A stretch of 64,000 nt of DNA from Daucus carota subsp. sativus (lineage: Eukaryota > Streptophyta > Magnoliopsida > Apiales > Apiaceae), in NCBI RefSeq assembly GCF_001625215.2, contig NC_030381.2, positions 46,250,689-46,314,688 of the forward strand. Direction: 5' to 3'. Below, in pieces: positions 9,274-62,981 of the stretch. Every line of letters begins with the position of its first letter. Positions within the stretch are counted from its first letter, which is position 1. The notes under the pieces are model-generated. The model was given only the letters and a program-made list of their open reading frames with translations, was not told where the DNA came from and did not search any database. The position numbers were made by a program, and so were the translations under genes.

Positions 9274-9526
9274 TTACAGAAAAACTTTGGTTAATGACTA
9301 AACAGTATGAAGCAATGATACCATACCACACAATTAATTACCGGAAAATAAACAATAAAACGAAAATTGCAAAACAAAAATGAAAAAAGTCTGACAAGTA
9401 TGTTCCCTGGGGCAAGAAAAAGATGAGCCCAAAAGTTAAAATTATCATGACTGAGATAAATAGACTGACACTACTTACCTGTGGATTTTATATTTCTCTG
9501 TTACATCTTAAAGAAGGGGATGCTGT

Positions 9527-11090
9527 TCACTGTGAAAGCATCTGTAGCTTCACCTGCACCTTCACCTCTGCATCACTATTCAGGTTCACAATAGCCATAA
9601 TGATAAGTTCTTTCAGAAACTCCAGTTCTCCCTACAATATATAAAACTAATAGCTCCATGCATATGCATGTTGCAACAAAAGAAAACCAAATAGATAAAC
9701 GTTTGTGGTGGAAATTTGAAAACACTCATAAATGATGCTTAGTTTTTTCTTTGAAGGCTTGAGTTTTACATGAAGCTTTTTAAGAAGCCACAAAATGAAC
9801 TCTTCTGAGTCAGACTGACAACCTGATTCGAACACTTATTACTTGCATGTATAACCGCTTGTAGAAACTCATGTGGACTTACCTGTAAAAATGCATCACT
9901 ATAACTCAGTTACCAAACAAATCACATTATAAGCAGGCAATATTAACAACTTTATACAACACAGGGTCGCGCTCAAGAGAGAACCAGTCCTTAAAATAGA
10001 ACCATAGAACCATTAAGGTTCTGCTGTAGAACCCTAAATTTTAAATAGATTTTTAGGATCCAAATCTAAATACATGTTTTTTCATGTTTTTTCATCGTTG
10101 TGTGTGTTCAAAAATAATTTTAAAATATAATACATAGATATTGACATTTTTTTGCATGTGAAGTTCTGCTGCAGAACCCTAACTAATACTTAAGTTCTGC
10201 TGTAGAACCCCACCTACTACTAGAAATAAGGTAAGGGTTCTATGGTTCTCTCTTGAACATGACCCTAAAGACACAATATGAAACCTATTCTTTAAAGTTC
10301 CTAGCAAGCCAATTTTTTGGGTGAAATCCCTGAAGTGCTGCGCAAGAGGAGATTCTCTCTGAGCATAATTACCTGGTGTAAAAAATGAAATTCCTCAGTG
10401 GAGTGACACACCTTAAAGATTCAATGGTGACATTCATGAAGTCGGTCTCATTTATGTTGTTAAGTCCCACTTAAACAATACAAAAGTAAAGGCTTCAACA
10501 ATTAGAAACAGCCCACCAAAATCATACAGCTAGAAATAGATGCGAAAGAATTACAACAAAAAAAAATAACAAAAAATCTAAAGGTGGGTACCCCTTTCTG
10601 GAAGATAATTTGATTCATCAAAGGCTCTCAAGACCATTGCTTGTTTCTATCAAGCTGGTCAACTTGATCCTGACTGAATCTCTGAAGAAACGCAAGGAAA
10701 CATAATGAATGAATGTACTGGTATAATAAGATGATATGCAGGACAGCATAGCTTGTAAATTTGAATAGCTTGGTGAGTCAGTCAGCCTTCCTAACTTCTT
10801 AATAACAACTTACTATGTCCCTTACTAAACATCCTACTCTACTACTAAGAAAATTAGATTTATGATAATGACAAGTCATTGATTTCACATCAGTCAGGTC
10901 AGGGAGGCAACAAACTTTCTCTGCCAGAAGATATTTAGTGTCCAGTTGGACCAGCCGTGATACATGTGAGATTTCAGTCCTCCTCCTTGAATATACTTCA
11001 CACAAGGTAACCATGCATATACATTCAAGTTGGAAAGATATACTGAACAAATCATGAGCAGCCTGATTACCGTATGAGAACAAGCACATT
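9527..11090 (-). pseudogene. Decayed SAD1/USP39-like gene fragment, copy A
   Basis: Minus-strand pieces in collinear order resemble the U4/U6.U5 tri-snRNP-associated protein SAD1/USP39, an inactive ubiquitin-protease-like splicing factor. They are a zinc-finger part around 11020-10870 (ECICMVTLCEVYSRRR, then AEKVCCLPD), FSQDQVDQLDRNKQWS followed by RAFDESNYLPE near 10690-10600, a remnant of the LTRKIW-ARNFKG region near 10300, SPHEFLQAV near 9870, QSDSEEFILWLLKKLH near 9800, and GELEFLKEL near 9635. The frame shifts after NKQWS and again between SPHEFLQAV-HASNK and the QSD segment, and the donor after YECFQ is lost. It cannot make the normal protein. A MITE (9963-10266) sits inside. A transcribed relic remains possible. 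Confidence 0.8.
9963..10266. mobile_element. TIR MITE inserted in SAD1 relic A (possibly Mutator-like)
   Basis: The left end AGGGTCGCGCTCAAGAGAG and the right end, whose complement reads AGGGTCATGTTCAAGAGAG, form inverted repeats of about 25 bp. Inside are several copies of TTCTGCTGTAGAACCCTAA-like palindromic units. The homologous position in relic B (near 23000) lacks the element, confirming an insertion. Flanks (atacaacac and aaagacaca) are only loosely similar, so the superfamily is a guess. Confidence 0.72.
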
Positions 11091-13722: not shown

Positions 13723-16390
13723 TCACAGCATATTATTCTGGACCTTGTTCTGAATCTCGATTTGTTTTTTATTAGAAACACTCTTGATCACATCCGTAGC
13801 AACAGCGCGTGGAACTTCCCTTTCCCTGCTGCTCCCGGAAGCAACATGAGAAATGTGTGGATTATGCACTACAGATGGTTCAGGGTTTTCCTGTCCAGTC
13901 AATCGAACTGTAGATGTATACAGAGGCCAATTCTGAGGCCAAAGACAAGTTACTTCTTCAGTTTTAGCCGTTCTCTGTGCAGAAGGAGACTTGTCAGTCT
14001 TATCTGAGGCTATGTTCTTCTCTACCTCCATCAGTTCTTTTGAGGAGGACCTAGTGAACGTTACTGAGGCTGGACCATCATCAGCATCATCGTCCGAGTC
14101 TAGCACAATAATCTCTTTACCAGCATATGTCAGTTCTGACTTGTTCAGTCCACCTTCCCCAAGCTTTCTAAATGACCTGCTCGCTATCTCATGCGGATTG
14201 CTCTCACCCAGGTTTATGCTCTTAGTCCCAAATAAATTTGAGCCACAAGCATCCTCAGTTTTCTCCATTCCCTGTGCAGATTGAGACTTGGAATTCTTGT
14301 CTGAAGCAATGTTCTTCTCTACCTTAATCAGTTCTTTTGAGGAGGATCTGCTGATCGTTACTGAGGCTGGACCATCATCTGAATCTAGCATAATCACTTC
14401 TTTACCAGAAAATGTCAGTCCTGACTTGTTCAATCCACCTTCCCTAAATTTTCTGAAAGACCTGTTAAGTATTTCACGTGGATGGCTGTCACCCAAGTTT
14501 AAGCCTTTTGTTCCGAAGGAGATTAAGCCAGAAGCATCCTCAGATTCCTCCATTCCCTGTGCAGAAGGAGACTTTAATATTGAGCCAGAAGAACTCGTCT
14601 TGCAACGCTTTTTTCCTCTGCTTGTGCTACCAGGTTGCACCGCATGGACTGAAGTCTTTTCTGAACACTTGGTTCTGTTAATGCTTGGGTCTGAATTTTC
14701 CATCACGTCTTCGGAATCCGGAAGGTCAGCAAGAGCTATGTTTAAATCAGGTATTTCGGGCATAACACGTTTGCGTCGATTTCCTTTTCCAGCTGAAGCA
14801 AATGCATCAGTAGAAGATAACTTTAAAGAGACCGTGTCCTGTAAAATAGATAATTAGTAGAATAATAATGCCTGCAAGCTTTAGCAACAAACAAAGTTCA
14901 GCTAATAAAAAGTTTGCAATAGAAAATTGGGTCTCTTGTAATGGCAGAAATTTTCTCTCACAAAACAGATTCTGCCTAAATGGCAAATACATAGCTCTAT
15001 TTTCTATACCAACAGAAAAGCAGCATCATATAGAATGCACAGGAAATTCTTTACTTGAAGCACAGTTTATAGTACAAAGTCTTGTTACACATAAATTTCA
15101 ATGCAGTATATACGATATATATTCCTGTACCTTGTCTATGTGTGAAGAATTTGCACCTGCAAACATTGAGAAAGAGAAATTAGATGCAAAAGAGAAAAGA
15201 AAAACCTAACCACAGGTTTAGCCTATGGGTTAGACACATAAATGGCTACAGATAAAAGAACATATAAAAAAATACATGATTGCATTCTGTAGAACAAAAA
15301 TGATCATATCAACAGGGGGAGGGGGGGGGGGGGGGGGGGTTGTTACTTTTATAGATTGTGCCCTAGAAGTCTAATAGCTACTTTATCTGTCAGCTGAGCT
15401 GCACTAACTCTTTGATCTATGTTCTTTTTATATAGAGGCATAAGATATATAGATACCAGAAAGTTGAACTTCTTCCAGCGGACCAAAAGCTGGCTGATAA
15501 TTGTTCAGCATCGGAAAAGAACCATAATTCTTCCTTGACATCGGCATCAATGATTTTGTGGAAGTTGAGCAGATATCTAGCCTTTTATTACTGGACAACA
15601 CTGTGGAGTCAAACTGGTGATTACACTCTTGTTTTGAAATTGTATCAGTAACTCTTGAGGTCTTTCTCAATGCTTCCGGGTACTGTACGTAGTTAAACTT
15701 TTCTTGTCTACATAGTGAAGATGGCATTGAACTTCTCTCTCCCTTGTCTCTGCATTCTCCAAGATTAGATCCTTGGGGCTGAATGTGAGATGCTGTGCCT
15801 GTAAAATAGTCATGCAAAGACCCTATGTAAGCAAAGCTGCCATCACAAATATGATGAAAATTAGAAAGGTTATTAAGGTTTCCACGACACTTACTGAGTG
15901 TAGTTTTGCTCGACAAAGTAGACACTGGATCTTTTGAGGAGAAGTATCCCCTATTAATACATAGAGCATAATTACTGTTCTCGAAGTTTTGCACAAGTGG
16001 ATTCTTTACTACTTGCACACTGTTGGTGCCTTTGTCATTTTTAAGAACGGACCCTCTCCCACTTAACTGAGAAATATTCGATACTGAGCCTACCATATCT
16101 GGTTTATAATAACTGATGTTATTTGACATTGTGGAGCTAGAAATTCCAGAATCAAATTTTCTATATCCTTTGGGAGGTCCATATGCGTTAGATGCATCCC
16201 CCACTCCACTTACTGAAAGGTGATTCATAGTATTATGACCAAGAGGAATAGAAAACTGGTGCCGCTCTTGAAGTGCTGTATTGGAACTGGCTCCTGACGA
16301 AGATGACATGTAGACGAACGGGTGATAATGTAACGGATTTCTAGATCTCTCAGCAGAAGTATGATATGATTTTATTGCATGATTCCACAT
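13723..16390 (-). CDS. Unidentified nuclear-type protein with duplicated SIM-like motifs, about 691 aa
   Basis: Exons 15457..16390, 15131..15156 and 13723..14838 join in frame with GT-AG junctions. The N-terminal half is Ser/Asn-rich and lacks a domain I know. A basic patch GKGNRRKR, a possible nuclear signal, is followed by MPEIPDLNIALADLPDSED, which resembles EAR-like DLN motifs. Then a segment of about 90 residues occurs twice; each copy has an S-AQGME start, an FGTK-NLG-S-P-EI block, an RSFRK-EGGLNKS block, and KEVIMLDSDD or KEIIVLDSDD. These last fit a hydrophobic SUMO-interaction motif followed by acids and phosphorylatable serine. The ATG at 16390 has an upstream in-frame stop in the same exon; additional 5' coding exons are still possible. 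Non-coding 5' exons probably lie at 17566-17606 and 19020-19205. Function unknown. Confidence 0.72.
15315..15339. repeat. Poly-G tract in an intron
   Basis: A run of 5 G, one A and 19 G lies in the intron between the first two coding exons of the 13.7-16.4 kb gene. A similar poly-C run of 18 bases lies at 22314-22331. Such tracts could form G-quadruplexes or be of uncertain assembled length. Confidence 0.85.
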
Positions 16391-51149: not shown

Positions 51150-51869
51150 ATGTCACATATAACATCCTTAGCCCACAACTAGATGCATACCGGACCCAAC
51201 AACCCACCACAGGTCGGCCCAAAAGTGCTAGCAAATTAGTATACATTAGTTATTTGATTGTGCTTATAAAGGCCCAAATACTCATTATCTAACCGATGTG
51301 GGATGTTAGAAACACCCCCTCTTATATGCTCGACGTCCTCGTCGAGCTCACAATCAAACTTACGAGACCCGGGCAGTGCCTTTGCACTTCCGACATCCAC
51401 CCGGGCAGTGCCTTTGCACTTCCGACGTCCTCGTCGAGCTCACAATCAAACTTACGAAACCCGGGCAGTGCCTTTGCACTTCCGACATCCACCCGGGCAG
51501 TGCCTTTGCACTTCCGACGTCCTCGTCGAGCTCACAATCAAACTTACGAAACGCGGGCAGTGCCTTTGCACTTCCGGCCGGGCAGTGCCTTTGCACTTCC
51601 GACGTCCACCCGGGCAGTGCCTTTGCACTTCCGACGTCCTCGTCGAGCTCACAATCAAACTTACGAAACCCGGGCAGTGTCTTTGCACTTCCGGCCGGGC
51701 AAAGCTCTGATACCATATATAACATCCTAAGCCCACAACTAGATGCATACCGGACCCAACAACCCACCACAGGTCGGCCCAAAAGTGTTAGCAAATTGGT
51801 ATACATTAGTTATTTGCTTGTGCTTATAAAAGCCCAAATACTCATTATCTAACCGATGTGGGATGTTAC
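51150..51869 (-). mobile_element. TRIM (terminal-repeat retrotransposon in miniature), about 720 bp
   Basis: Direct terminal repeats of about 155 bp (about 51152-51308 and 51711-51867) start, on the minus strand, with the TAACATCCCACATCGG motif common in plant LTRs. Next to the right-hand repeat the minus strand reads TGGTATCAGAGC, the primer-binding site for initiator tRNA-Met, and a purine-rich tract precedes the other repeat. The internal part has no coding domains, only a nested tandem array (a unit of about 93 bp with 33-bp sub-repeats containing CGGGCAGTGCCTTTGCACTT). The two terminal repeats are highly similar, so insertion is fairly recent compared with the block duplication. Non-autonomous by structure. 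Confidence 0.85.
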
Positions 51870-55802: not shown

Positions 55803-56434
55803 TCACCAGCCCCCGTCATTTCCGCCACGGTTCGAGTAGCGAGAACCACCACCACCTCCTCCATAACCACCACCACCTCCATAGCCACCACCACCTTCAC
55901 GACGTCCACCGCCATAACCTCCGCCGCCGCCGCCATACCCACCCTCACGGCGTCCACCGCCGCCGCCTCCACGAGACTGAGCCTCATTCACAGTAATGTT
56001 GCGCCCTTCCAGTTCCTTCCCGTTCATCCCTTCAATCGCGTCATTCATCGCCTTCTCGTCCTTGAAGGTCACAAATCCGAACCCCCGAGACCTCCCCGTC
56101 TCACGATCATTGATGATCTGCATTCATAACACCCATCACAATCCACATAAACAAATTCAACAACTCATTATACACAAACTCAAAATCGGCCAAACATACC
56201 GTAAATCGTAGTAATTAGTAACACATTAGTAACAAAGAGTAACAATAGTAACACATAGTAAACAAGATCTGTGTCCAACGGGTCAGATCCGACCCGATTA
56301 CATAATTATCACAAACCGACCTTGGAATCAACCACATCACCGTACTGAGAGAAGGCGTCTTCGAGAGAGCGGTCAGTAGTGGCCCATGCCAGACCACCCA
56401 CGAAGCAACGGTACTCGACATCAGCTGAACTCAT
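55803..56434 (-). CDS. Glycine-rich RNA-binding protein, GRP7/GRP8 type, 142 aa
   Basis: Exons 56321..56434 and 55803..56117. One RRM (residues about 8-85) has RNP2 CFVGGLAWA and RNP1 RGFGFVTF; the C-terminal third is Gly-rich with [15 protein letters not shown] repeats and ends NRGGNDGGW. Class IV glycine-rich RNA-binding proteins act as RNA chaperones in cold and other stress and, in the GRP7/8 group, in circadian and splicing control. The single intron (203 bp) splits the RRM between SK and IINDRETG, the position used in GRP7/8, where intron-retained or cryptically spliced forms mediate autoregulation. A TATA box (CTATATAAA, 56511-56519) lies 80 bp upstream. A paralogue is at 61337-62088. 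Confidence 0.96.
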
Positions 56435-57180: not shown

Positions 57181-58497
57181 AACTAGGACTTTTGCCCGGC
57201 TACCGCCGGTATATTTTTACTCAGGAGTACTGTGAAAAAGTTGAATGGAACTTTTTCAAACAAAAGGCCCACACAAAAGCCTATACTAAATTGCTATCAT
57301 AAGTCCCTAAGAATTTCTGTTTAATACTGCATAGGTATATACGAAACCCACTGAGCATTCTTATTTAACTAATTGGGCCTAAGCATAACAATTGGGCTAA
57401 CGCTAAAAAGGGAATTGCAAATTTTTCTTTTAACTTAATTCGCGTTACTTTGTGAAACACATCTTAAGATGACCCAACCACATACTTAATAATTTTATTT
57501 CAAATTAATTTTTGAATTGAATTAAAATATATATATTTATTCGTATTAAAAACCTACAACTTAAACATTGATATTTTTGAAGTAAACTCTTATTCAACTC
57601 TTCACTTTTGGCTTACGTATTTAGTTGAGATCATCAAATAATTAACGTAAATAATAATGCTATGGAAGAGTTTAAAGGAGATTTGTTATACAAAAGGCGT
57701 ATAGGGAATCCTCTCCATAAGTGCTATGATAATAATTTGCTTAGTAATACCGCTTAGGGACATAGCAATGACAGTAATTATACAAATTTGGCCCATACAT
57801 TAAAACTGGGGAAATGTTAGCTAATTTCAAGAGGAAACATGTTATTTTATTTTCCGTGAATTTTACTTTTGGTTCACATCTTTAGATGAGTTGATCGGAT
57901 AATCAATATTATTAATTTTAATTTATTTTTTCTGTTAATTAAAATATTAATTATATATTTATATTCCAAAATTACGTAATAATTTTCCATATATAAAAAG
58001 TCTTTTTTTACTAATTGCTTCTCGGCGCCGCCGAGCGACGACACCTCGCACTTTAATCAAATGTTTTATATTTTATAAAAAAAAATAATTTACACAGGTA
58101 AGCGACGACTCACATTTTAGTCGATTGTTTTTTATTTTTTAATTTTATAAAATTTAAATACATATCGTAGCTATCAAATTTTGAATAAAAATTAATGATT
58201 AATATAATGAATCACTTTTATAAGAATATTGAATTAAATTACCAGAAGATAATACGTGTGAAATTAAATATAATTTACATAATATTAATTTATTATAAGT
58301 TATCTTTTAAAGTGACCGTCTACATATTCATGACTCAAATTTCAAAATAAGTCCTTGAAAGAAGCTGATATTTTGAACTTCTTAGAATCACAAAACTTAA
58401 CTTATAAGTTCATTGAACCAACGTTAAAAAAAATTGATTCTAACTCATAATTAAAAGTTTCTCGATGTCGCTTCTCGTGACACCAGTCTATTGCTTC

Positions 58498-58807
58498 TGC
58501 ATTTGGGACATACCAACCTTGAGTATTGTCTCCTTCGGAGTCAAGCCCTTCTCAACATCTGACTTCAACCTTCTCATAAGGGATGGACGGAGGACCTAAC
58601 ATAAGCAAAAACATAATTAGAATAGCATCATATTGCAACCACGGACAACAAACTTAAATACAGTGCGTGTATCTTGTGAAGCTATTGAACAACCTCTTCC
58701 AAGTCATTTTCCCCAGAGATTGCAAACCATTCATCAAAAGTTTCTGATGAACTAAAAATCTCCGGAAGTAGAAAGTTCAGTAGGGACCAGAGTTCATGAA
58801 GATTGTT
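58498..58807 (-). pseudogene. Two exons of an ISWI-type chromatin remodeler (CHR11/CHR17-like), fragment
   Basis: Exon 58673..58807 encodes [40 protein letters not shown], then Q, stop, LHK; exon 58498..58595 encodes VLRPSLMRRLKSDVEKGLTP and KETILKVGMSQMQKQ then a stop. In ISWI ATPases these follow the GTPLQ motif and lie between the two RecA-like lobes. A CAG-to-TAG change (58682-58684) ends the frame before LHK, and the donor after LHK is no longer GT. The missing ATP-binding and helicase C-terminal regions mean it cannot remodel nucleosomes. The first exon begins exactly at the ISWI exon junction, which points to capture of genomic exons. Confidence 0.88.
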
Positions 58808-60219
58808 CTGCACATCACAACTGACATTGGTCAAAAATTAATTTACATACCAGATATCATATCTTGTGCTACGCACACTCGCAAACTAAGCAGATAACGT
58901 TATAGACGGATAAAAAAGAAAACACGCAAATATAAATACATAAGAACTTTAATAGGAGACACAAGAATCAGTCACCAGATTGCAGAGAGGAATCCAAACT
59001 AAAATAGCAGACCTCCAGCCATGGTATAACCCATCAGAGTCAGAAATATTGTTCCGCTGCGCAACAGACATCATTTAATCAAAACACTGTATAACAAACA
59101 TATATATAGATTTAAGCACGAAAGATCTTTACCTGACCCATTACACAGAGGACTCGTTTGTAAAGGAGAAATAATGGAGAAAAAGCTTCAACGGAGAACG
59201 GTAAGGCTGTGTCATACCCAGTATTTGTTATACCTGCCGACATGCCGAGAATGACTGATTGGAAACATCAGACAAAGGAGTTCTACCATGCTTGCTGTCG
59301 GAACAGTGACCACAAGCAGCTGCAAGACCGGTGCCTGTATGATATAGGAACATGAACATCGTTGCAGACGAAAAATAATGCAGGCAAATGAATACACAAA
59401 AACTTTAACAGGCAGCTTTAGAAACACTCACCAGAGTGCAGAGAGGAATCCAAACTAAAATCAGCAGACCTCCAACCATGGTAAAACCCATCAGAATCAG
59501 ATATATTGTTATGCTGCGGAAACAGAGTTCATTTGATAAAAGCACCGTGCAAACAAAATTTTGTGTGAATAAAACTTACTTCGTCAACATTTGATAAAAT
59601 ATCGTTTGAGATCACATGAGCAGGACTTATTTCGTCAACAATCACAGAATCAGTTACAGATCTTGTAAGCATGGGCGTTGACAAACCTCTGTTTGAGGAA
59701 TCATATCGTCCTTTTTGAGCTTACGTGCAAATCATTAGACATGAATTAGACATAAATGGAAAAATGAGTTAATATAAATGACATAGGGACAGTTAAATAC
59801 CTGACTTAGTTGTAGAACGACAATAAAAAGGACTGTTTTCATCAGAGAAAATACGCCCAGTATCTTTACCATGCTTGTCGCCGGAACAGTGGCCACGGGT
59901 AGCTGCAAGCCCGGTGTGGTCAACTTGAAGCAAATGTACGACGCTGCCTGTATAATATAGAAGAATGGACATCTTTGAAAACTAAAAACAGAACATGCAA
60001 ATGAATAAACAAAAGCCTAAAGTACCAGCTTTAAAAAAACTCACCAGATGGCATAGATGAATGAAAACTAAAATCAGGAGACCTCCAACCATGATCCAAC
60101 CCATCAAAATCAGAATCAGACATATTGTTAGGCTGCGAAAGAAAAGTTAATTGGATAAAATAACAGTAGAAAATAAATTTAGCAGAGATTTGCATACGAT
60201 GAATCTTTACCCGACCCAT
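58682..60219 (-). CDS. Predicted chimeric gene: repeated exon units joined to an ISWI exon, about 257 aa
   Basis: Exons 60211..60219, 60045..60132, 59801..59947, 59580..59719, 59432..59513, 59234..59334, 58976..59056, then ISWI exon 58682..58807. Phases agree at each junction. Exon type 1 ([20 protein letters not shown]) occurs three times, ending at HSSMPSG, DSSLHSG and, in a shifted frame, VWIPLCNL. Exon type 2 ([18 protein letters not shown] / [18 protein letters not shown]) occurs twice. The ATG exon is also duplicated (MGQ at 59133..59141). A single-base loss in the third type-1 exon makes its donor phase 0, which fits the ISWI exon in frame; TAG at 58682 then ends the protein. The source of the repeated exons is unknown to me. 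A promoter-like, CT-rich leader lies at 60220-60470. Expression is unproven. Confidence 0.5.
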
Positions 60220-61336
60220 TGTAAATTACAGTCGCTTGTTAATAACAAAATGGCGGAGGAAGCTCGGGGATAAAGCAGACAGAGATTATGGGGGAAAACA
60301 GAACAAAAGCAGAGTAGAGAAATGGAGAGATGGATCGGGAGCGAGTAGAAGAACAATAATAGAGCACTGAAATTTGAATTTTCAAAATGAAAGATAAATT
60401 TAAAAGAGGAGGAAAAAGGGGGCCGCATAAGTCAACTGCTGCAGGGGAAGTAATGATCAATGGCAAGTTTTGTAAATAAGAGGCCCGCGAAGGACAACCA
60501 TAGTAAAAGTGACTCGCATTTGCCTTCAGGATTTATATTCTATAGATGTGTACAGAACAATAAAAAAGACACGACACGAACCTGACCCGCAATCCGATTT
60601 ATCACAAAATCTGAAAGTGATCCGAAAATTACTTGATAGACCCGAAATTAGAATTTTAAGTGATTTTTACTTGATCCGGAATCATTTCGATTGCTGACAT
60701 GAACACGACCTGTTATTCGAAATCGCCGTCCCAGCTCTGTGTATCAAATTCAAGTCTACGCTAGTAAGCATGCAGGATTGACTCTATGCTTTTATGCAAA
60801 CCGGTTTTCGAGTGGCAAAACTACTGGAGTATGACTAGGCTGAATCTCGAATTTTAGCTCAAATTATTGAGTCATGAACTCGAGTATAATAATTCTCTAT
60901 TGGAGGACATTTATTTTCTCTCTCGAGTTTAACCAAATAATATAGACATTCCACAAAAAACATATTAATTTAAGCCCCTTACTATATTTCCTCTCCTTCT
61001 ATCTGCAATATTTAAGATTTTAAGTTCACTAATACAAAATTGAGAAATGAACGTAATTGTTGCTTTCGTATTATCTTCCTGTGGTACAAGAGAACAATGG
61101 ACACTCGGAGAGATCTGATATTCTTCAAACACTAGCTACTGAACCAAAGCATGTACACACACGCAAATAAACACATACCAGGCCCAACCTGTATCTAATC
61201 GATTCCTGATTTTTGAATTCATACATCATTTCTCGAATCAGAGAGAATCAAACTCACAAAACAATCACGCACACTAACTTTATTTTATTTATATCCAAAA
61301 AAACCAACGAAATTTAATCATGCAACATACTAAAAT

Positions 61337-62088
61337 TTAATTCCTCCATTTCCTGTCTGGACCTCCCGCACGGCTACCATACCTCGGAGACCCGGTATCA
61401 TATCCACGCCCACCACCTCCACCATATGGTCCGCTGTCACGACGACCATAACCGCCTCCACCTCCTTCCCGTCTTCCACCACTATGACGGAAACCTCCTC
61501 CACCTCCACCTCCATTTGCCCTCGACTGAGCCTCATTCACCGTAATGTTGCGTCCATCTAGACTCTGCCCATTCATTCCCTCAATCGCTTCTCGTAATGC
61601 ATGCTCTTCTCTGAACGTCACAAATCCGAATCCCCTCGATCTCCCGGTCTCGCGATCATTCACAATCTATCAAATAAAAAACATACAATATCAAATTAAA
61701 CTTAAAAAAAATATGAAGCACATGATGATCAATTAGATATCAGCTTATCAAATTTGCAAGATTAGTGGCTGAGAAATTACATATAATAAACATAATTAAA
61801 AAGGCATAACCGATCTTAACGTACCAGAGGAGAGGATGAGGATGAGTAAAAGTAACAAAAAGAGAGCTAGAGAGTATGATGATAACAGAAACAAAAGCAG
61901 AACAGGTAACAAATGATCAAGATCACTAGTAACAAATAACACATCAGACTGCGCTAGCTGCCCCCGTCACCGACCTTCGAATCCACGACTTCTCCGAACT
62001 GAGAGAACGCGTTGCCCAGAGTCCTGTCAGTAGTGGCCCATGCCAGTCCTCCCACAAAGCATCGAAACTCTACATCTGCAGCTGCCAT
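61337..62088 (-). CDS. Glycine-rich RNA-binding protein, 147 aa, two exons
   Basis: Exons 61975..62088 and 61337..61666. The RRM ([20 protein letters not shown], then [20 protein letters not shown]) has intact RNP2 and RNP1; the C-terminus is Gly/Arg-rich ([20 protein letters not shown]) and ends GGPDRKWRN, less glycine-pure than the paralogue at 55803-56434. The intron (308 bp) sits at the same RRM position. Likely an RNA chaperone of the class IV GRP group. The two GRP genes are about 5 kb apart on the same strand, consistent with tandem duplication later separated by the Helitron-like insert. The promoter has only a weak TATTTAA near 62181. Confidence 0.95.
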
Positions 62089-62981
62089 TGTCACGATGGG
62101 ATTAATATTATTAATTTATATTTAAAGAGTTAAAATTTAGTGGGAGAAAGCAATGAAGAGAGGAGAGCTGAATGGAGGGGTTAAATAGGTGAATCAGCCT
62201 AGTTTTAGTGATGATTCATTGACCCAGTTTTGTTGTTTGTCCATTCTTTGCGCTCTGTTCTTGCGCTGCTACTACCGAGTTTCACTCTATTTTGTTGCAA
62301 CTCAAACTCAACTAATTTCTAGCTTTTCCTCTACGTTTCCTAATTTTGCGTTTTCATTTTAATGGTTCAAAATCAATTAGAATTATAAATCAAGAGATGC
62401 AAAACAAACCTATTTATTTATCCCATCGATCAACTTGCTCTGTCACTTAAAAATTGTATGCCCCTGCTAATAATTAGACATTAAAAGATCGTGATCCGTC
62501 TTCGTTTTAGAGAATGTTCATGATCATAAGAAGCATATTGTTATAAATAACATATACAAGAAGTTCTTGTCTAATGTCCTCACGAGGACTGAAATTATAA
62601 GAGGATTCAAACAACATGACGTACACCATAATTGATCATATCCAAATTCAAAAGCACAGTGATAGAGATATGCGTACAACTGAAGAACAGATTGTAGCTG
62701 ATCTGTTAAGTAAGTGCAGGATTTTACAAAGTCATAGTATATTCAAGCACAATCACTTCCGTCCATATGTTGCGGTTAAAACCCGTGGTAACAAAACATG
62801 TTAAAACATCAGTTACTGTTGTGGGATGGATCTTTAAACAGTTCAATTATTTTTCGTTCTCATATTAAGGTTTGTAAGCAAGTCCAATCCGATGTCAAAA
62901 GAGGTGCAGCACCAAATGTAAATATTTAACAGAACATTGTCACTTAGGGCTATTGCTTCCAGTCTATTCTGAATAATTAGA

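Follow-up and report, generated by a model that had tools for sequence, protein, structure and literature searches.

A non-autonomous Helitron in carrot with a captured ISWI fragment and repeated exons of probable RepHel origin

The window analysed here is a stretch of 64,000 nucleotides from Daucus carota subsp. sativus (NC_030381.2). Two minus-strand glycine-rich RNA-binding genes, presumably of the RRM type, lie at 55803-56434 and 61337-62094 and are 73% alike over 119 nt. Between them is a complete Helitron of 3,364 bp, which occupies 57183-60546 on the minus strand; its 3′ end is 749 bp upstream of the ATG of the gene at 55803-56434. Read on the minus strand, the boundaries are A/TCTATAGAATATAAATCC at 60546 (5′) and CCGGCGGTAGCCGGGCAAAAGTCCTAG/T at 57183 (3′), and the copy in the window has the Helitron end motifs, 5′ TC and 3′ CTAG. 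The 5′ terminus (60519-60546, minus strand) reads TCTATAGAATATAAATCCTGAAGGCAAA with an A before it. The 3′ terminus (57183-57209, minus strand) consists of the hairpin CCGGC-GGTA-GCCGG (57196-57209), then GCAAAAGTCCTAG, then T. This hairpin has a 5-bp stem, stops 13 nt short of the end of the element and folds with a z of -2.5, an equally good fold being found in 5 of 200 shuffles.

Both end patterns were searched genome-wide at up to 3 mismatches, with the reversed patterns as a control. The 3′ pattern gave 11 matches and the 5′ pattern 12, with 0 in the reversed controls, and these could be paired into 10 complete elements of 3,364 to 8,606 bp, the window copy being the shortest. Copies sharing the ends at 57183 and 60546, whose absence the sequence-only reading had named beforehand as its refuting test, therefore exist; moreover, the Helitron, its orientation and its ends had been placed exactly by that reading, both ends being common to 9 other complete elements. 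All 10 have A/TC at the 5′ end, a T directly after the 3′ end and a hairpin with identical letters, whilst the 3′ CTAG is found in nine and reads TTAG in the sibling L009. The unpaired ends are a lone 3′ end at C5:28281075 and 5′ ends at C8:28863577 and C3:48194376, which belong to elements with a damaged 3′ end. In a further element, L015, the 5′ end is decayed. We also considered segmental duplication as a source of the copies and rejected it, since the 400-bp flanks of the 10 elements differ except for short repeat matches. These are few: the two inverted arms on either side of L009 itself, L013 with L022 (~113 bp, 75-77%) and L022 with the window copy (73 bp, 71%), the right flank of L010 comprising only ~35 bases.

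The mode of insertion can be read from L009, which is inserted in an abundant short inverted-repeat element (L009:1382-1561 and 9427-9776; 1215 first-look candidates genome-wide). When joined, its flanks align at 94-98% with uninterrupted copies of the repeat, 40 of which were scored out of these 1215 candidates, and the best such match is 98% over 513 bp with the length unchanged. The other arm of this repeat, too, aligns without a gap at the join, the one gap lying elsewhere. Therefore, the family inserts between A and T without target-site duplication, the empty site being supplied by this sibling.

The longest stop-free frame is 97 aa in the window copy and 156 aa over the 10 elements. A tblastx search of the elements against 12 Rep loci returned six short matches only, all between the L010 element and L029, and no element having these ends plus RepHel was found. 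An autonomous Helitron encodes Rep and a PIF1-type helicase, and the window copy encodes neither. It is a non-autonomous Helitron of a small family, and its own Rep and helicase domains have been lost.

The interior carries a segment of an ISWI gene at 58489-58854 (minus strand), made up of the end of an intron, exon a (58807-58682, to the stop), an intron without a splice donor and part of exon b. This segment is 90.6% identical over 371 aligned columns, intron included, to the ISWI gene at C8:27659 (L016). The sequence-only reading had claimed that ISWI exons were captured in sense orientation, which this match bears out, and had proposed a search for an intact donor gene, which it answers. 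The donor, which we take to be a plant ISWI of the CHR11/CHR17 type, is itself 96% identical in its best exon to an ISWI query, and the captured exon matches the Pfam family SNF2-rel_dom (E = 7.6e-9; 35.5 bits, the cut-off being 24.9). A complete ISWI remodeller is an SNF2 ATPase with HAND-SANT-SLIDE; only 58489-58854 of the element matches the donor gene. A genome search with the HAND family gave no match anywhere, controls included, and is therefore uninformative.

The donor match is present in 5 of the 10 complete elements (the window copy, L009, L011, L012 and L013) and absent in the other 5. L015 matches too, so that parts of the capture are found in six elements in all. Four of them (L009, L012, L013 and L015) retain two pieces of the donor, with position ~4120 joined to 5949 and GTTGTAA flanking the deletion at either side. 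L011 has the same junction and the second piece, which the window copy has lost. The ISWI piece is a true capture from the C8 gene, and given this single shared junction, the simplest account is that it was taken once and then spread with the family.

Seven exon-like units lie on the minus strand ahead of the ISWI segment, arranged in three groups that we call units A, B and C. Unit A comprises exon 1 (60211-60219; ATG GGT CGG, then GTAAAG), exon 2, an N-terminal exon of probable RepHel type (60045-60132), exon 3 (59801-59947), in which two exons are fused by a deletion relative to L012 and L013, and exon 5 (59580-59719), which has the acceptor GTAAG/C and no clear source outside the family. 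Unit B holds second copies of exon 2 (59432-59513) and exon 3 (59234-59334). Unit C holds a third copy of exon 2 (58976-59056), in which a 1-bp deletion happens to put it in frame with the ISWI exon. The window copy thus has exon 2 three times and exon 3 twice. That such units occur two or three times had been noted from the sequence alone, and the repeats are real, forming five families (D1, D2, D3, D5 and D9) that are 63-86% identical without gaps.

Their multiplication had also been called unusual. The repeats stand, and two things account for their number, an aligned block in common with L009 and a mosaic join. The block (window 58489-59558, or positions 1307-2376 of the element counted from 57183) is 89% identical to L009 and holds unit B, unit C and the ISWI segment. 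Elsewhere the closest relative changes along the element. The first 228 bases of the window copy are closest to L014 (96.5%; bins 95-98%), with L021 second at 92-95% in three bins. In bins of 60 bases, L011 is the best match across unit A (60246-59706) in 9 of 10; between 59526 and 57246, L009 is the best or an equally good match in 26 of the 39 bins by hand count, less clearly towards the 3′ end. The window copy therefore looks like a mosaic of about three lineages, in which the joining looks to have placed a further exon set ahead of an already doubled one. Template switching in rolling-circle copying would produce such a join, as would ordinary recombination, and the data fit both.

Turning to the source of the repeated exons, the N-terminal exons match five loci outside the family at E below 0.001 (C1:26049, C1:47388, C4:18974, C7:14882 and C5:24747). 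Weak matches were found at three more: C7:20579 (three pieces at E 0.06-0.18, and in another search one at 0.77), C9:32754 (E 0.1) and C3:38143 (E 1.4). These loci were compared with those listed of 168 Rep matches and with PIF1 matches, for which 150 of 232 candidates were scored. A Helitron_like_N domain lies downstream of the exon matches on the same strand at C7:14882 (2,178 bp) and C5:24747 (2,182 bp), and PIF1 follows after a further 1,698 bp and 1,681 bp, respectively, again on the same strand. At the weak locus C7:20579 the same order recurs on the same strand, with Helitron_like_N at 2,000 bp and PIF1 1,546 bp on, and the exon match and the PIF1 match both contain stops. For a random site, the probability that one of the 168 Rep matches lies no more than 3 kb downstream is ~6e-4. 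The chance of a Rep downstream is ~3e-6 for 2 of 5 loci and ~1e-8 for 3 of 8, both if the loci are independent; the spacings at C7:14882 and C5:24747 agree within 4 bp, so that these two are possibly copies of one element and not independent, and a single clear locus alone is expected by chance in ~0.3%. From this position upstream of Rep and PIF1, together with the short protein matches, the repeated exons are probably the 5′ exons of RepHel that remained after its domains had gone. A search for the source of a repeated exon had been proposed with the sequence-only reading; relatives upstream of Rep and PIF1 were found at two clear loci and a weak one. Exons 4-5 had no clear source, their search returning family members and four weak C3 matches (E 5.35), none of them at any RepHel locus.

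The coding capacity was assessed by splicing the seven exons and the ISWI exon in silico, which yields 257 aa with a stop at 58684-58682. The predicted ORF of about 257 aa ending within the ISWI segment was thereby reproduced exactly. This frame needs the 1-bp deletion in unit C and the non-standard acceptor of exon 5. The ISWI splice donor AAG/GT reads AAG/AT in all five aligned copies of the first donor piece. A CAG codon of the donor has become TAG in L009, L012, L013 and L015; the window copy reads TTG there and has its own TAG six codons on (58682-58684, minus strand, CAG in the donor), which closes the 257-aa frame. The captured copies also differ by frameshifting gaps. In exon a, the window copy differs from the donor by 2 non-synonymous and 3 synonymous changes (Ka 0.020, Ks 0.124), a ratio that, alone, would suggest constraint. 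Of the 10 pairwise comparisons between copies, 8 give a Ka equal to or higher than Ks and 2 a lower one, in a test that has ~26 synonymous sites and is hence weak. Taken together, we read the stops, the lost splice donor and the Ka/Ks values as decay of the ISWI part, and a working protein appears unlikely. As to the chimeric gene proposed for this locus, the frame is indeed open, but a coding unit is doubtful, given that none of the 5 aligned copies has kept the splice donor, that each carries a TAG and that frameshifting gaps separate them.

Three other readings bear on the exons and their product, along with a more speculative one. The repeated exons might derive from a host gene without a part in transposition, captured and joined with ISWI into a two-gene chimera, the original having since disappeared or diverged beyond recognition. 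Exon 2 matches no Pfam family, exons 4-5 are without a clear source outside the family, and three of the five clear loci (C1:26049, C1:47388 and C4:18974) have neither a Rep nor a PIF1 domain nearby among the matches listed, as would be expected of an independent or a captured gene; the same holds among those matches for the weak loci C9:32754 and C3:38143. However, the exons precede a Rep domain by 2.0-2.2 kb, with a helicase domain beyond it on the same strand, at two clear loci and a weak one, and a match to exon 2 or 3 (E below 0.01) is found in 8 of the 10 complete elements, with or without ISWI (the exceptions being L010 and L014). We consider a host gene an unlikely source, and the separate source gene assumed by the sequence-only reading is not upheld.

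A second possibility is that the element has been exapted, being transcribed into a RepHel-ISWI fusion peptide that would act, for instance, as an interfering ISWI fragment. The 257-aa frame is open across seven joins, the changes against the donor include the 3 synonymous ones against 2 non-synonymous, and chimeric Helitron transcripts have been described in maize (PMC4528327). Set against these are the splice donor lost in every aligned copy, the TAG that 4 of 5 copies share at the codon read as TTG in the window copy, the Ka values between copies and a peptide retaining only 41 ISWI residues, and we regard such exaptation as highly improbable. A third possibility is that the captured sequence works as RNA, a source of small RNAs that would silence or tune the ISWI donor. 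Its 91% identity to the donor would suit this role, and a review (PMC13317346) mentions such reservoirs among maize Helitrons; however, the sense orientation alone yields no double strand, and we give this reading little credence. More speculatively still, a spliced RNA might fuse the repeated RepHel N-terminal modules to ISWI, and the peptide or small RNAs might feed back on transposition or on the donor. We think it very doubtful, but if true, the product would represent a transposon recruiting a fragment of a chromatin remodeller for its own regulation.

The explanation that we favour, and hold to be very probable, is that of a non-autonomous mosaic Helitron with probable RepHel 5′ exons and a single decayed ISWI capture, presumably making no functional protein. 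In this scenario, the Rep and helicase domains would have been lost and the probable RepHel 5′ exons kept as two to three copies that have diverged. The host ISWI piece would have been captured once, by an ancestor, an internal part of it would then have been deleted at the 7-bp shared sequence, and this cargo would have multiplied along with the family. The window copy may then have been assembled from about three lineages, either by recombination among siblings or by template switching from one to another. A related RepHel presumably mobilises the copy in trans, and most likely it makes no functional protein.

Plant non-autonomous Helitrons, as far as the accounts of maize (PMC4528327) and of rice Mothra (PMC4683698) describe them, likewise have TC/CTRR ends and a 3′ hairpin, insert between A and T without duplication, capture gene fragments and are devoid of RepHel domains. 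Unlike the elements in those accounts, the window copy has repeated 5′ exons of probable RepHel type, few copies and an ISWI cargo. Within this genome, the three RepHel loci (C7:14880, C5:24744 and C7:20581) have related upstream exons with the same order and strand, weakly matching at the third, whereas the window copy has neither a Rep nor a PIF1 domain; the 11 3′-end and 12 5′-end matches of the family all fall outside these loci. With plant ISWI it shares exon a and part of exon b, at 91% DNA identity to C8:27659, but it is a fragment only, with the splice donor and frame lost. Among the open-licence papers searched, no earlier case of a Helitron capturing ISWI was found. The element adds a clear case to a process that is well known; it is not a new kind of gene. 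Its ends, the empty site of a sibling, the donor, a single capture, a micro-homology deletion and mosaic joining are all readable from one genome. Moreover, it carries a warning that exons which are repeated in a non-autonomous Helitron and taken for captured ones may be the remains of the transposon's own gene.

Lastly, several tandem arrangements were observed. Part of the interior of the element, 57957-58230, recurs in tandem with a period of ~420 bp at C9:3920.7-3924.0 kb (L028), and it is also found at C5:26203-26206 and 26219-26223 kb with a spacing of ~850 bp. Elsewhere in the window, 51331-51701 is a compound tandem repeat with units of 32, 92 and 117 bp that is open on both strands (145-180 aa), and 13971-14574 contains about two copies of a 285-bp unit within a 376-aa minus-strand open frame that is apparently coding.
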